Assembly (NCBI RefSeq): GCF_016793225.1
Contig: NZ_JAEUMN010000022.1
Location: 1-64,000 of the forward strand
Length of the DNA: 64,000 bases
Source: Phenylobacterium sp.
GTDB taxonomy: Bacteria > Pseudomonadota > Alphaproteobacteria > Caulobacterales > Caulobacteraceae
Direction of reading: 5' to 3'
Below are positions 298 through 5,304 of the stretch, in pieces (position 1 is the first letter of the stretch; each line of letters begins with the position of its first letter). The position numbers were made by a program, and so were the translations under genes. Under the pieces are notes generated by a model. It searched no databases. It was not told the DNA's origin and was given only the letters and a program-made list of their open reading frames with translations.

Positions 298-1589
298 CCG
301 ACGCCCGCGGGGTCACCGGCGCGCGGGCAGCGCCCTTCGGGCCCTGGGAGCGGATGATCGCCGCGCGCTACCTGCGTGCGCGCCGCAGCCAGGGCGGCGT
401 GTCCCTGATCTCCATCATCTCGTTCCTGGGCATCATGCTCGCCGTCGCGGGCCTGATCGCGATCATGTCGATCATGAACGGGTTCCGGTCCGAGCTGCTG
501 AACCGCATCCTCGGGTTCCAGGGCCATCTGTTCGTGACCGGCGGCGTGCTCGACGGCCCCGAGCGCGACCGGGCGGTGGCGCGCATCGTCAAGGTGCCCG
601 GCGTGGTCCAGGCCGCGCCGATCATCGAGGCCCAGGCCATCGCCATCGGCCCCAGCCAGATCACCGGAACCCTGGTGCGTGGCATCAGCCTGGCGGACCT
701 GCAGGCGACGAAGCTGGTCTCGGGCCAGCTGACGGCCGGCTCGCTGCGCGAGTTCGGGAAGGGTGAGTACGGCGGCGACGTGATCGTGGTCGGCGCCCGG
801 CTCGCTCAGTCGCTGGGCGTCGCGCCTGGCGACACCCTGACGCTCATTTCGCCGACCGGCGGGGCGACCGCGTTCGGCGGGACGCCGCTCCAGAAGCCCT
901 ACACGGTGGGGGCCACCTTCAGCGTCGGCATGAGCCAGTACGACCAGGCCTACATCTACATGCCGCTCGCCCAGGCTCAGCTGTTCTTCGGCCGCGAGGA
1001 CACGGCGGACGCCATCGAGATCAAGGTGACCGACCCGGACCACGCGTCCCGCATGCGGGGGCCGATCACCAAGGCGGCGGGGCCGGCGGCCATCGTCAAC
1101 GACTGGACGCAACGGGACGTGGCGTTCTGGGGCGCGCTGGCGGTCGAGCGGACGGCGATGCGCATCATCCTCGGCGTGGTGATCGCCATCGTGGCCCTGA
1201 ACATCATCTCGGGCCTCGTCATGCTGGCGAAGAACAAGACCCGCGACGTGGCCATCCTGCGCACCGTGGGGGCGGGCCGCGGTTCGGTCCTGCGGATCTT
1301 CTTCATGATCGGCGCCAGCATCGGCGCGGCCGGCACGGTCGCGGGCGTCGCGCTGGGCGTGCTCTTCTCCCTGAACATCGGCCCGATCCAGTCGCTGGTG
1401 GAGTGGGCCACGGGCGCCCAGGTGTTCGCCTCGGACGTCTACTACTTGTCGCGCCTGCCCGCGAAGGTGGACTGGCTGGAGGTGTTCTGGATCTCGGTCT
1501 TCTCCCTGAGCATGGCGTGTCTCTGGAGCCTCATCCCCGCGTGGCGGGCGTCCAAGCTCGATCCCGTCGAGGCCCTTCGCTATGAATGA
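294..1589 (+). CDS. lolC: Lipoprotein-releasing ABC transporter permease (LolC/LolE family)
   Basis: A 431-residue inner-membrane permease. With LolD it should extract mature lipoproteins from the inner membrane and pass them to LolA. A first membrane segment lies at about residues 33-55 ([20 protein letters not shown]), followed by the conserved [16 protein letters not shown] motif, a large periplasmic domain, and three C-terminal membrane segments containing [18 protein letters not shown] (coupling region to the ATPase) and the ending [15 protein letters not shown]. Only one permease gene is present, as is usual in alphaproteobacteria, so it probably works as a homodimer in place of LolC/LolE. 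I chose the GTG at 294, overlapping the proS stop, because the conserved [16 protein letters not shown] lies after it. An internal ATG at 354 with a nearby GGGAG is the alternative. Its stop overlaps the lolD start. Confidence 0.93.
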
Positions 1590-2271
1590 CGTGGTCCTGT
1601 CGATCCGCGGCCTGGAGCGGACCTACGTCACCGGCGCGGGGTCCCTGCCGGTCCTGAAGGGCGTCGACCTCGATCTCCGGGCGGGCGAGATCGTGGGGCT
1701 GGTCGGGCCGTCAGGCTCGGGCAAGTCCAGCCTTCTCCACGCAGCGGGCCTGCTGGAGCGCCCGGACGCCGGGCGCATCGCCGTGCTGGGCGCGGACTGC
1801 TCGAACCTGAACGAGCGCGAGCGCACGCGCGTGCGGCTGGCCACCATCGGCTTCGTCTACCAGTTCCACCACCTGCTCCCCGAGTTCTCGGCCGAGGACA
1901 ACGTGGCGATCCCGATGATGATCGCGGGCGCGCCCAAGCGGGTCGCGCGGGAGAGGGCCCGCGTGCTGCTCGCGGACCTCGGCCTCGGCGACCGCACCCA
2001 TCACCAGCCCGCGCAGCTTTCCGGCGGCGAACAGCAGCGCGTGGCGGTCGCCCGGGCGCTCGCCAACGCGCCGCGCCTGCTGCTGGCGGACGAGCCGACC
2101 GGAAACCTGGACCCGACGACCTCGACGGCGGTCTTCGACAGCCTCTACGCCCTGGCCCGGAGCCAGGGCGTGGCCGCCCTGGTCGCCACGCACAACTTCG
2201 AGCTCGCCCGCCACATGGACCGGGTGTTCGCCCTGCGCGACGGGCATCTGGAACCCTGGTCGGCGGAATAG
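1582..2271 (+). CDS. lolD: Lipoprotein-releasing system ATP-binding protein LolD
   Basis: A 229-residue ABC ATPase that powers lipoprotein release. Walker A is GPSGSGKSS at residues 42-50, the Q-loop region is [11 protein letters not shown] near 91-101, the signature is LSGGEQQ at 146-152, and Walker B is LLLADE at 166-171. The FHHLLPEF segment and overall length are typical of LolD within the MacB/LolD subgroup. Its ATG at 1582 overlaps the end of the permease gene by 8 bases, so the two are co-translated. The last codons (GGAATAG) also form the start of the -35 element of a putative ECF promoter for the next gene. Confidence 0.95.
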
Positions 2272-2291
2272 AAGCGCGGTCCGGCGCGTCT
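2265..2291 (+). promoter_or_regulatory. Putative ECF-sigma promoter, copy 1 (GGAATA-N16-CGTCT)
   Basis: GGAATA at 2265-2270 is followed, after 16 bases, by CGTCT at 2287-2291. The -10 ends 44 bases before the start of the small secreted protein at 2336. The same two blocks with exactly the same spacing occur at three other places, all in front of genes of the ECF module between 2.3 and 6.1 kb. The -35 lies in the last codons of lolD. That this is a promoter, and that the local ECF sigma factor uses it, is inference from the repeated pattern. Confidence 0.72.
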
Positions 2292-2335
2292 CCTCGCCAG
2301 CCGCGCTCGATGCGGCGAAGCGATGGAGGACATTC

Positions 2336-2665
2336 ATGTCCGTTCTCAAGAGGCTGGCGCTCGCCGCCGTGGCCGGGCTTGCTCTGACGGCCTCGGCCCA
2401 GGCGCAGACGGCGACGTCCGGTTCCGGCTCGACCGCCGACGCCGGTGGTCGGGTCACGACCGTGCGGCCCACCGCCGTAAGCCCCGGGCGCCCGATGCCC
2501 GTGGACCGACGGGAAGTCAGGCCTGGTCGTGGCGACGGCGCAGACCGCGGCGGCGACCACTTCCGCGACCGGCTGCGAAATGCGTGCTTCAACGACCCGA
2601 ACCCGCCAATCTCGCTGTGCCGGCGGGTGTTCGGCGACGAGGCCGGCGGCGGACGCGGCGGCTAG
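2336..2665 (+). CDS. Small secreted protein with two C-terminal cysteines, putative ECF regulon member
   Basis: I do not recognise a family. The 109-residue product has a clear signal peptide (MSVLKRLALAAVAGLALTASAQA, likely cut near residue 23 after AQA). A low-complexity segment rich in Gly, Arg, Pro and Asp follows, then a short C-terminal block with two cysteines 13 residues apart (NACFNDPNPPISLCRRVFGD), then a Gly-rich end. The pair could form a disulfide in the periplasm. The start ATG is preceded by GGAGG (within gatggaggacattc). An ECF-type promoter sits 44 bases upstream, matching those of the sigma operon, the S8 protease and the barrel protein, so it is likely an envelope protein made on the same signal. 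Its function is unknown. Confidence 0.75.
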   Translation: MSVLKRLALAAVAGLALTASAQAQTATSGSGSTADAGGRVTTVRPTAVSPGRPMPVDRREVRPGRGDGADRGGDHFRDRLRNACFNDPNPPISLCRRVFGDEAGGGRGG

Positions 2666-2674
2666 ACCGCGGTA

Positions 2675-2719
2675 GGCGGGCGGCCCTCGATCAGCCCGCT
2701 CCCGGCCGGGCCGTCCGCC
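2675..2719. terminator. Hairpin between convergent genes
   Basis: A 12-bp stem pairs 2675-2686 (GGCGGGCGGCCC) with 2708-2719 (GGGCCGTCCGCC), with one G-U pair and a 21-base loop. It lies between the end of the small secreted protein gene and the end of the minus-strand protease gene. There is no strong T-run on either side, so intrinsic termination is likely but not certain. Confidence 0.5.
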
Positions 2720-2724
2720 GATCT

Positions 2725-3978
2725 CTATTCCCGGGACGCGACGTAGCCGTGCCCGAACACGGGGTCGCGGCCGGGATCGCCCAGGTCGCGAGCGCGGTGC
2801 GCCAGCGACGCCGGCGTCACGCCCGGCCGAAGCAGCAGGCCCGTCACGACCGGGGCGGCCAGCGAGGTGCCGGTCCACTCGCCGCCCGCCGCCCGGATCT
2901 TCACGCCAGGCGCGGCGAAGTCCACATGTGACCCCTGGGTCGCCCGCCGCCAGATCCGAAGGCGCGAGTCCACGGCGGTCACCCCGAGCACCTCGGGCAG
3001 GGCTGCCGGGAACGGCGCCGTGGCGCGAGGACCCCCGTTGCCCGCGGCGGCCACGATCACGACGCCCCGCGCGGCGATCCGTCGGACCACGGCCGCGATC
3101 GCGGCGTTCGGCGGTCCCGCGAGGCTGATGTTGATCACCTGGACCCGATAGCTGGCCGTCCAGTCGAGCGCCTGGGCGATCGCCGTGGCGCTCGCGCCGG
3201 GCAGGGGGCCCGGCTCGGACACATCCGCCGCGAGCAGGACAAGCCCGTCCCGGCCCGCAGTGTCGGCCAGCACCGCCGCGACGGCCAGGGCGTGGTCGCT
3301 GGGCCGACCGACCCCGGGCCCGAACCTGCGGGCGCGAAGCGCGACTCCGGCAAGCGCTGGAGCGCCCTCGGGAAGCGCTGTGTCGATGACCGCGGCGAGC
3401 CGGCCGGCCGCGCCTGCGCCGGGATCGGCGTGGACCAGCGGGTGGACATGAGATGTCCGGACCGCCTGGAAGACGTAGACGAAGTTGAGGTCGACGGCGT
3501 CGTCCGGACGGGCCGCCTTCAACGCCAGGAAGGCGGCCTCGGTCTTCATGCCGGCGGGCGCGGCGAACGTGTGCAGCGTGAGCCCGGCCGCCGGCAGGAC
3601 CTCGCGCCGAATCTCCTTCAGGCCAAGCTTCTGCGCCGCTTCCGCGGCGCCTGGCTGATCGGCGGCGACGACGATCTCCCCGCGGCGATGCCATCGGCCG
3701 GAGAGGTCGCGCTCGTAGGTCGCCGCGATGACTGCCCGTTCCTGCCGCAGGACCTCCCGGGTCTGCAGCGCTGCCGCCTCGGCCGCGGCCGCCGCTTCCC
3801 GGCGGACCGCCTGGCGGCGAAGCGTCTCGATAGAATCCGTCGCGCTCGGCCGCATCGGCGTCGGCGCCGGCAACGGGCGCATCGGCGCGGCCGGCCGTGA
3901 GGCAGGGCCTCGCTGGCCCGTCGCCGGCGCCGCCGCCAGAACGATCGCCGCGATCGCCGGTACCATCCGCCAGCGCAT
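2725..3978 (-). CDS. S8 family (subtilisin-like) serine protease, exported
   Basis: A 417-residue exported protease. The start ATG at 3978 is preceded by GAGGGA and gives a signal peptide, MRWRMVPAIAAIVLAAAPATG. Residues 25-190 form an N-terminal region with an Ala/Glu/Arg-rich, probably coiled, stretch at 50-90. The S8 domain follows: Asp199 in AAVIDTALPEG, His229 in RPSDHALAVAAVLAD, the oxyanion Asn314 in VAAAGNGGP, and Ser372 in GTSLAAPVV. The triad is complete, but the usual contexts are altered: DTA replaces DTG, and DHALAVA replaces HGTHVAG. It is divergent from the ECF sigma gene and shares a symmetric promoter with it. Linkage of an S8 protease to an ECF sigma/anti-sigma pair suggests a role in the envelope response; whether it cleaves the anti-sigma factor or is only an output is unknown. 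Confidence 0.88.
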   Translation of the reverse strand: MRWRMVPAIAAIVLAAAPATGQRGPASRPAAPMRPLPAPTPMRPSATDSIETLRRQAVRREAAAAAEAAALQTREVLRQERAVIAATYERDLSGRWHRRGEIVVAADQPGAAEAAQKLGLKEIRREVLPAAGLTLHTFAAPAGMKTEAAFLALKAARPDDAVDLNFVYVFQAVRTSHVHPLVHADPGAGAAGRLAAVIDTALPEGAPALAGVALRARRFGPGVGRPSDHALAVAAVLADTAGRDGLVLLAADVSEPGPLPGASATAIAQALDWTASYRVQVINISLAGPPNAAIAAVVRRIAARGVVIVAAAGNGGPRATAPFPAALPEVLGVTAVDSRLRIWRRATQGSHVDFAAPGVKIRAAGGEWTGTSLAAPVVTGLLLRPGVTPASLAHRARDLGDPGRDPVFGHGYVASRE

Positions 3979-4003
3979 GCTTCGTCCCTCATGTCGGCCG
4001 GTG

Positions 4004-4030
4004 GGAATAACCACGCCCGCGAAGACGTCT
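4004..4030 (+). promoter_or_regulatory. Putative ECF promoter, copy 2, for the sigma/anti-sigma operon
   Basis: GGAATA at 4004-4009 and CGTCT at 4026-4030 are separated by 16 bases, facing the sigma gene that starts at 4092. The -10 block is one half of the palindrome AGACGTCT (4023-4030); the other half is the -10 of the opposite promoter. Autoregulation of an ECF operon by its own sigma factor is common in the family, and this site fits that. Confidence 0.75.
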
Positions 4031-4049
4031 GCGGGTCGAACTCTATTCC
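4023..4049 (-). promoter_or_regulatory. Putative ECF promoter, copy 3, for the S8 protease
   Basis: On the minus strand, GGAATA occupies 4049-4044 and CGTCT 4027-4023, again with 16 bases between. The -10 ends 44 bases before the protease start at 3978. Together with copy 2 it forms a bidirectional promoter with a two-fold axis in AGACGTCT. Confidence 0.74.
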
Positions 4050-4091
4050 GGAGGTAACCTGTGGCCGACGGCCGAGCATGGAGCGAGTCGG

Positions 4092-4604
4092 GTGGGGCGT
4101 GACGACATCGACGCCCGGATCGCCGCGGTGATTCCGCGGCTGCATCGCTTCGCCTGGGCCCTGACGGGGTGCCAGGCCGACGCCGACGACCTGACGCAGG
4201 CCGCGTTGGAGCGCGCGCTGGCCAACAAGCCGAAACTGGCTGTGCAGCGGAGCGTGGAGGCATGGATCATCCGCGTGGCGCGCAACCTGTGGCTCGACCA
4301 GCTCCGGCGCCGCCGGGTGCGTGACGTCGCCGTGGATCCGTCTCTGCTCGCGAGCGCCACAGAAGATGCGGCGCATGTCCGTCTCGAGGCCGAGGAGGCG
4401 CTGCGGGCGCTCCGGGCGCTGCCGCCGGGACAGCGCGAGGTGGCGGCGCTGATCCTTGTGGAGGGCTACTCCTACCAGGAGGCGGCCGACGCGCTGCAGG
4501 CGCCGATCGGGACCGTCATGAGCCGGCTCTCCCGTGCGCGGGCGGCGCTGGCGAACCTGTTGCTGGGGCGTGGGGACGCACAAGTGCAAGGAGCGGCGCC
4601 GTGA
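4092..4604 (+). CDS. ECF-type RNA polymerase sigma factor
   Basis: A 170-residue sigma-70 family protein of the extracytoplasmic-function type, with region 2 and region 4 only. Region 2 spans about residues 12-78, with FAWALTGCQADADDLTQAAL and RSVEAWIIRVARNLWLDQLRRRR (core binding and -10 recognition). Region 4 spans about 110-160, with LRALPPGQREVAALILVEGY followed by the helix-turn-helix SYQEAADALQAPIGTVMSRLSRAR (-35 recognition). The start is GTG at 4092 (in ggGTGGGGCG); no better in-frame start is seen. Its TGA stop overlaps the GTG of the anti-sigma gene (GTGA). It is likely autoregulated from the symmetric promoter upstream, and likely directs the four identical promoter elements here. 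I cannot assign the ECF subgroup with confidence. Confidence 0.93.
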   Translation: MGRDDIDARIAAVIPRLHRFAWALTGCQADADDLTQAALERALANKPKLAVQRSVEAWIIRVARNLWLDQLRRRRVRDVAVDPSLLASATEDAAHVRLEAEEALRALRALPPGQREVAALILVEGYSYQEAADALQAPIGTVMSRLSRARAALANLLLGRGDAQVQGAAP

Positions 4605-5284
4605 CCCTCGACGATGAAACCCTGATGGCCTTCGCCGACGGGGAGTTGCCGCCGGACCGCGCGGCGGCCGTGGAAGCCGCCCTCACCACGGAGCCCGATG
4701 CGGTCGCGCGGCTGCAGCGCATTCGCGCGGTGCGCCAGAGGCTCGCCGGCGCGCTGGACGCCATCGCGCCGCCCGTCGACGTCATGGACCGGGCCAAGGC
4801 TGCAGTTGCGGCCCGCCGTGGGCCGGGCGGTTGGCCGATGATGGCCGTAGCCGGCGTGGCGGGGCTCGCTGTGGGCGCGTTGCTGACGGCGCCGTTCATG
4901 GCCGGTCGGAGCGCGCTCGCCCCCGACTTGACTGCGGGCCCCGCGCTGAAGGCCGCGCTGAACGCGACACCCAGTGGGGCGGTCTCGAGGCGGGGCGGCC
5001 GGGCGATCGCGGTTCTCTACTCCGTCATCGGCGCGGACGGACGCCCCTGCCGCGGCTTCCGGATCAGGCGCGGCGAAACGGTGCTGGAGGGTGCGGCCTG
5101 CCGGTCCGCGGAGACGTGGCAGGTGCTCGTGCTGGCGCCGGCAGGTCCCGAGCCGGCCGGATTCGGTCAGGCGTCGGGTGGGGAACCGGCGGCCGTGGCC
5201 GCCGCCGTCGATGCGCTGCAGCCGGGGCCCCCGCTGGATGCCGCGGCCGAGGCTCGGCTGATCCGGAGAGGCTGGTCGGAATAG
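4601..5284 (+). CDS. Membrane anti-sigma factor
   Basis: A 227-residue single-pass membrane protein, translationally coupled to the ECF sigma gene. The N-terminal cytoplasmic part (MTLDDETLMAFADGELPPDR, helices to about residue 70) matches the sigma-binding helical domain common to anti-sigma factors. It lacks the His-x3-Cys-x2-Cys zinc motif. A membrane segment follows at about 78-101 (WPMMAVAGVAGLAVGALLTAPFM). The remaining 125 residues are periplasmic, with a Cys pair in GRPCRGFRIRR and EGAACRSAETWQVLVL. The role is to hold the sigma factor inactive until an envelope signal releases it; the signal is unknown. The last codons overlap a further ECF promoter element for the barrel gene. Confidence 0.88.
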   Translation: MTLDDETLMAFADGELPPDRAAAVEAALTTEPDAVARLQRIRAVRQRLAGALDAIAPPVDVMDRAKAAVAARRGPGGWPMMAVAGVAGLAVGALLTAPFMAGRSALAPDLTAGPALKAALNATPSGAVSRRGGRAIAVLYSVIGADGRPCRGFRIRRGETVLEGAACRSAETWQVLVLAPAGPEPAGFGQASGGEPAAVAAAVDALQPGPPLDAAAEARLIRRGWSE

Positions 5285-5304
5285 ACCGGGCGGGCGCCGC
5301 GTCT
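5278..5304 (+). promoter_or_regulatory. Putative ECF promoter, copy 4, for the barrel protein gene
   Basis: GGAATA at 5278-5283 and CGTCT at 5300-5304 are spaced by 16 bases, identical in layout to the other three copies. The -10 ends 32 bases before the start at 5337. The -35 overlaps the anti-sigma stop codon. This would let the barrel gene be transcribed on its own as well as from the sigma operon. Confidence 0.72.

Follow-up and report, generated by a model that had tools for sequence, protein, structure and literature searches.

Does an extracytoplasmic function (ECF) sigma factor of Phenylobacterium sp. read its own genes and only those, and how would the arrangement of its promoters shape that control? 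The question arises in the window, by which we mean the whole stretch of DNA analyzed (positions 1 to 64,000 of contig NZ_JAEUMN010000022.1, assembly GCF_016793225.1, here coded G000), where the promoter-like pattern GGAATA-N16-CGTCT occurs four times around genes for an ECF sigma factor and its anti-sigma factor. Judging from the sequence, we consider it likely that this block is a self-contained module of the ECF26 type, in which the sigma factor reads its own genes and the middle regulatory element is bound in one orientation at a time. We favor a self-contained module because the exact sites are found only before the module's own genes.

Four exact sites confined to one block

A sequence-only reading of this DNA had reported four sites with an invariant 16-base spacing, 32-61 bases before start codons. 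All four were recovered exactly (Table 1), and counting from the end of CGTCT to the start codon gave 44, 61, 44, and 32 bases. The same reading had judged chance very unlikely, and the counts agree; it had also suggested a genome-wide search, in which the pattern proved not to be scattered. In the window the mean expected number of matches was 0.00, and none of 100 dinucleotide shuffles contained four. Throughout the assembly (4,599,220 bases in 197 contigs, 97.5% complete), the window's four sites are the sole exact matches (reversed-pattern control, 0), that is, four in 3 kb and none elsewhere in 4.6 Mb. With one mismatch allowed, no excess was seen across the assembly (17 matches, the window's four included, vs. 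17 in the control). Every perfect site of the assembly thus lies within one 3-kb block, as would befit a rare closed regulon.

All four sites match the ECF26 consensus given in the excerpted text of PMC6180224 (-35 GGAATA, -10 GT). Immediately 5' of CGTCT, the single sites have G and the divergent pair has A, as required by the palindrome described below. At two of the four sites, those at 2265 and 5278, the -35 element contains the TAG stop codon of the upstream gene (GAA-TAG), that of the ABC-transporter gene and that of the anti-sigma gene, respectively, so that GGAATAG runs into the gene end (2268-2271 and 5281-5284); a distant site (231711) in G085, a relative introduced below, likewise lies at a gene end.

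A -10 element shared by divergent promoter-like sites

The two middle sites, on opposite strands, overlap by 8 bp and have in common the palindrome AGACGTCT, which presents CGTCT on both strands. The earlier count of four promoters therefore stands as four sites in one block, while the middle two constitute a single overlapping two-way element. Given this overlap and the common palindromic -10, sigma-RNA polymerase should bind this element one way or the other, but not both. If transcripts began 5-10 bases after CGTCT, their starts would be approximately 17-27 bp apart, to be compared with the 7-25 bp by which bidirectional promoters are defined.

There is precedent for such an arrangement in E. 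coli, where, according to the portions of PMC12825309 and PMC10268837 available, divergent promoters share a symmetric -10 and binding in one direction excludes the other. These bidirectional promoters, which Warman, Grainger and colleagues describe as pseudo-symmetric sequences with a regulation that has received very little study (PMC12825309, in part), have a housekeeping-type TATAAT, whereas the window's element has an ECF-type -10, the CGTCT within AGACGTCT.

In the mechanism that we propose, a membrane-bound anti-sigma factor would hold the sigma factor until a cue frees it, as is suggested by knowledge of the family. Free sigma factor would then read only the genes of the module, namely those for the sigma and anti-sigma factors (autoregulation of its own operon), the S8 protease, the small secreted protein, and the barrel-like protein. 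At the middle element, the geometry suggests that sigma-RNA polymerase would face one way or the other and transcribe the regulator operon or the protease gene, the two orientations never being occupied together. The envelope stress invoked by the sequence-only reading is a guess at the inducer, and export of the block's products is predicted from N-termini judged by eye together with Pfam matches.

Relationship to S. meliloti RpoE6

By its predicted products and sites, the block is probably a new addition to the ECF26 sigma type, which is already known. The excerpts of PMC6180224 describe the ECF26 factor RpoE6 of S. meliloti as encoded divergently from the serine protease gene SMa0142, with the anti-sigma gene ecfR6 downstream, and term the divergent protease widely conserved. 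Overexpression of RpoE6 raised the neighboring serine protease and anti-sigma genes, and 40 genes responded, compared with four perfect sites in the window's genome. That study could not define the inducer of RpoE6 either; RpoE1 and RpoE4 answer sulfite, which RpoE6 reportedly does not (PMC3511301, in part).

The pSymA stretch available to us (L204) carried no gene labels, and we identified it as the RpoE6 region because its three GGAATA-N15-CGTT sites equal the promoter strings tabulated for ecfR6, SMa0142, and SMa0148 in the excerpted PMC6180224. Its sigma factor is 44.5% identical to that of the window over 155 aa, and its S8 protease 43% over 218 aa; in a sigma tree, however, the window's sigma factor is on a long branch and not beside RpoE6. 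Both loci have a divergent serine protease, a sigma factor, and a known or predicted anti-sigma factor, with GGAATA sites before the protease and anti-sigma genes. The RpoE6 locus differs in its spacing of 15 and -10 of CGTT and in having neither an overlapping divergent pair nor a GGAATA site before the sigma gene.

Homologous loci in relatives

An ECF sigma factor similar at E 1e-15 or better, whether ECF26 or other, is encoded in 115 of 149 genomes of the family. We assembled 114 homologous loci, comprising the 34 best family matches besides the window (with wide flanks) and 80 loci kept from a scan of named genomes that yielded at least 561 relatives among 596 stretches; near-copies occur between the subsets (e.g., L079/L166 and L069/L141). 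With the window's proteins as reference for similarity, 76 loci have both a divergent S8 gene and a downstream anti-sigma gene, 15 have only the S8, nine only the anti-sigma, and 14 neither. A divergent S8 is thus present in 91 of 114 loci, and an anti-sigma homolog follows the sigma gene in 85.

In G085 (L078), from another genus of the family, the homologous module carries four GGAATA-N16-CGTC sites, located before the sigma gene, before the S8 gene, behind the anti-sigma gene, and farther off, three of them in places matching the window's. Among the matches listed for the 149 genomes, three or more exact matches within 5 kb occur in G000 and G085 alone, in both cases at a homologous sigma gene. 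At least one exact GGAATA-N16-CGTCT match occurs in 63 of the 149 genomes (the window's own included), but most of these matches are scattered, and we rejected the idea that the exact pattern is kept throughout the family. In the 23 same-genus genomes within this group, the pattern is nowhere clustered, and the best-matching sigma factor shows 46% identity; therefore, no close copy of the window's module is present there. A looser pattern, GGAATA-N15-17-CGTY, separated poorly from its control in G085 (56 vs. 46) and better in G007 (20 vs. 5), with four matches near the sigma gene in each. Other lineages have GGAAGA, GGATGA, or GGATTA with CGTT. Together, the uniqueness of the sites, the G085 block, and the S. 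meliloti data support the proposal of a local regulon, predicted to be that of the block's own ECF sigma factor.

The sigma region 2.4 helix reads R-V-[AC]-R-N-L-W in the window and L078, and mostly R-I-M-K/R-N-A-W elsewhere. We do not claim this helix as the cause of CGTC rather than CGTT: the CGTC cases number only two, and the reading is further weakened by L118, which stands beside L078 in the tree and has a CGTT site.

A 32-bp dyad between protease and sigma genes

In one sigma clade of the relatives, the gap between the S8 and sigma genes contains a dyad of 32 bp, GGAWGAAACG-N12-CGTTTCWTCC, and either strand of it can be read as the promoter. The 91 S8-divergent loci gave 89 distinct gaps, which were searched with GGA[AT]NA-N15/16-CGT[CT]. 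In 41, two N16 sites are exactly superimposed to form the dyad; 10 more have both sites without overlap, so that sites facing both ways occur in 51 of 89 gaps, compared with 0 of 17,800 mononucleotide-shuffled gaps. The dyad loci (within L065-L178, e.g., L083, L123, and L129) belong to Caulobacteraceae and Sphingomonadales. On the sigma tree (116 rows), they amount to one change relative to the other labeled rows, with 62 unlabeled rows uncounted; the branch has support of 90/67 and appears in 86% of 200 bootstrap trees.

Within the 55-row clade set that holds the dyad loci, which was chosen after the labels had been seen, 25 rows have no mismatch in the 20 arm positions, and 22, six, one, and one rows have one, two, three, and five mismatches, respectively (54 of 55 within three). 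Outside the clade, none of 59 loci comes within three, and the best has five, a level that shuffles reach occasionally (4/2750 and 4/2950). Paired arm changes are also seen, GGATGG accompanying CCATCC in L079/L166 and in L096. The strict dyad was found in four of 385 genomes sampled across the class, once each and always between S8 and sigma genes; a search of 10 genomes of G314's family for further dyads gave one match, already in the set. We did not find the dyad in the open-licence literature. While ECF26 is known, the shared -10 and the clade-wide dyad seem to be new features within it.

We raise the possibility, tentatively, that the protease-sigma gap of ECF26 loci is a conserved two-way switch, embodied by the 32-bp dyad in Caulobacteraceae and Sphingomonadales and by the shared -10 pair in the window. 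If so, each binding of sigma-RNA polymerase would pick either the protease or the sigma/anti-sigma operon, fixing their ratio and damping noise, and a bidirectional promoter would be maintained by selection throughout a clade of alternative sigma factors. The dyad superimposes whole promoters, -35 included, a geometry that does not appear in the available portions of PMC12825309 and PMC10268837. Its symmetry is kept arm by arm across the clade, between the regulator and the protease of one circuit, and selection of promoter symmetry as a regulatory device is therefore directly testable.

Several observations weigh against these proposals. Of the 89 gaps, 10 have no site and 28 are one-sided (15 on the sigma side, 13 on the S8 side). 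The long branch of the window's sigma factor lies outside the dyad clade, and its shared -10 geometry has no counterpart among the set's 10 non-dyad pairs, which do not overlap (spans of -6 to -42 on a scale where a dyad scores 32 and the window's pair 46). The window's overlap may have been reached by another route than that of the dyad clade, or it may be older. According to the accessible text of PMC12825309, the E. coli bidirectional promoters interfere only when one direction is strongly active. Finally, GGAATA sites are absent upstream of both the S. meliloti sigma gene (in L204) and a second, related sigma gene in the window's genome, and self-activation through this type of site is therefore not general.

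Promoter or operator

In 35 of the 41 dyad loci, the S8 gene is closely followed by a one-way site of the same form (on the other strand in 1 of 41), suggesting that a further regulon gene is conserved there. It is situated approximately 1.4 kb from the sigma gene (e.g., L080, L124, and L137). At the two variable -35 positions, this site agrees with a dyad arm in 31 of 35 cases (shuffled mean 16.6, none of 5000 shuffles as high), an agreement inflated by shared ancestry.

The repeats could instead be operators of another transcription factor; the relatives' dyad would then be a palindromic operator of the usual kind, placed between genes that diverge. Operators typically show such symmetry and such a location, and the variable letters of the two arms coincide in 23 of 41 dyads (shuffled mean 13.7; 10 of 5000 shuffles as high). 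Each half, however, comprises a GGA-type -35, 16 bases, and a CGT-type -10, in accordance with the ECF26 consensus, and the same form recurs one way behind S8 without the opposite half. Specifically, AACG (the -10 of the opposite strand in the dyad) comes after the -35 in just 1 of the 35 one-way sites of dyad loci; over all S8-divergent loci, it does so in 42 of 54 sigma-side sites vs. 4 of 49 behind S8 (42 of 51 vs. 8 of 46 by a cruder test for CG at positions 9-10). The inner 12 bases of the dyad show little symmetry (1.8 of 6 matches), and a non-systematic look revealed no further regulator gene common to the loci. We regard the operator explanation as unlikely. Because one-way copies lack the opposite half and the inner symmetry is slight, a promoter read on both strands is favored over an ordinary operator, although not proven.

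A second ECF26-like module in the same genome

The window's genome encodes four sigma factors similar at E 1e-15 or better, its own included. One of them, 47% identical to the window's, is surrounded by all four GGAATA-N15/16-CGTT matches of the assembly (control, 2), which lie at 35.5-45.0 kb of contig C118 and precede the gene for an RTX-repeat protein, a group of anti-sigma, S8, and Gcw_chp genes, an HlyD gene, and an unlabeled open frame. With GGAATA-N15-17-CGTY, 8 of 15 matches in the assembly fall in the two clusters (control, 4). The second module (L200, G000:C118:26000-45999) includes the RTX-repeat protein and HlyD/ABC export genes. It resembles the window's in its sigma, anti-sigma, and S8 genes and its four all-local GGAATA sites, but differs in its -10 (CGTT) and in having the anti-sigma, S8, and Gcw_chp genes grouped and divergent from the sigma gene.

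These data bear on whether the window's sites are promoters of another ECF sigma factor of the genome, such as the C118 paralog or EcfG. Similar sigma genes are available, the paralog's sites also begin with GGAATA, and in S. meliloti the regulon of RpoE6 overlaps with that of RpoE2 (PMC6180224, in part). Nevertheless, all four CGTCT sites surround the window's sigma gene and all four CGTT sites the paralog, and we judge control by another sigma factor slightly less probable still than an operator. The two systems could be insulated from each other by their differing -10 elements, and the presence of another closed regulon in the same genome provides a natural test of what separates two related sigma factors.

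As for chance repeats in a GC-rich genome, the occasional exact matches elsewhere in the family notwithstanding, we reject this explanation as of negligible probability given the shuffles, the genome-wide count, the one-mismatch comparison, and the restriction of clusters to G000 and G085.

By eye, the tail of the C118 anti-sigma factor (L200:11491-12111, minus strand) looks subtilisin-propeptide-like, which we do not claim: Pfam matched only zf-HC2 in this protein, and a hidden Markov model of the S8 N-terminal region gave a best E of 0.069 against 107 anti-sigma proteins, from another locus.

Genes and sites of the block

Table 1. Coordinates of genes and promoter-like elements in the window.
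Feature	Position	Strand	Remarks
ABC-transporter ATPase gene	1582-2271		left of site 2265
Promoter-like site, small secreted protein gene	2265-2291	+	-35 GGAATA 2265-2270; -10 CGTCT 2287-2291
Small protein, 109 aa	2336-2665	+	signal-peptide-like N-terminus by eye; no Pfam family match
S8 subtilase, 417 aa	2725-3978	-	Pfam 2.5e-14
Promoter-like site, sigma/anti-sigma genes	4004-4030	+	-35 4004-4009; -10 4026-4030
Palindrome AGACGTCT, common -10 of the divergent sites	4023-4030		read from sequence
Promoter-like site, S8 gene	4023-4049	-	-35 4049-4044; -10 4027-4023
ECF sigma factor, 170 aa, ECF26-like	4092-4604	+	Pfam ECF sigma 4.4e-14
Anti-sigma factor, 227 aa	4601-5284	+	start overlaps sigma stop by 4 bases
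Promoter-like site, barrel gene	5278-5304	+	-35 contains the anti-sigma stop codon
Barrel-like protein, 248 aa	5337-6083	+	PF13557 6.7e-5, 23.5 bits (cut-off 22)

From left to right, the block consists of the ABC-transporter ATPase gene, a site, the gene for the 109-aa protein, the S8 gene, the divergent sites, the sigma and anti-sigma genes, a further site, and the barrel gene. The ATPase is presumably lolD-like, a label of our own. ECF26 loci are expected to encode a downstream anti-sigma factor composed of an N-terminal anti-sigma domain, a single transmembrane segment, and a periplasmic tail. The window's predicted anti-sigma factor has one transmembrane stretch by eye; anti-sigma models match it weakly and below their cut-offs, among them zf-HC2 (3.2e-4, 21.2 bits, under the cut-off of 22.2). 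Aligned to subtilisin BPN', at the positions that we take to be those of its catalytic triad, the S8 protease keeps the Asp, His, and Ser.

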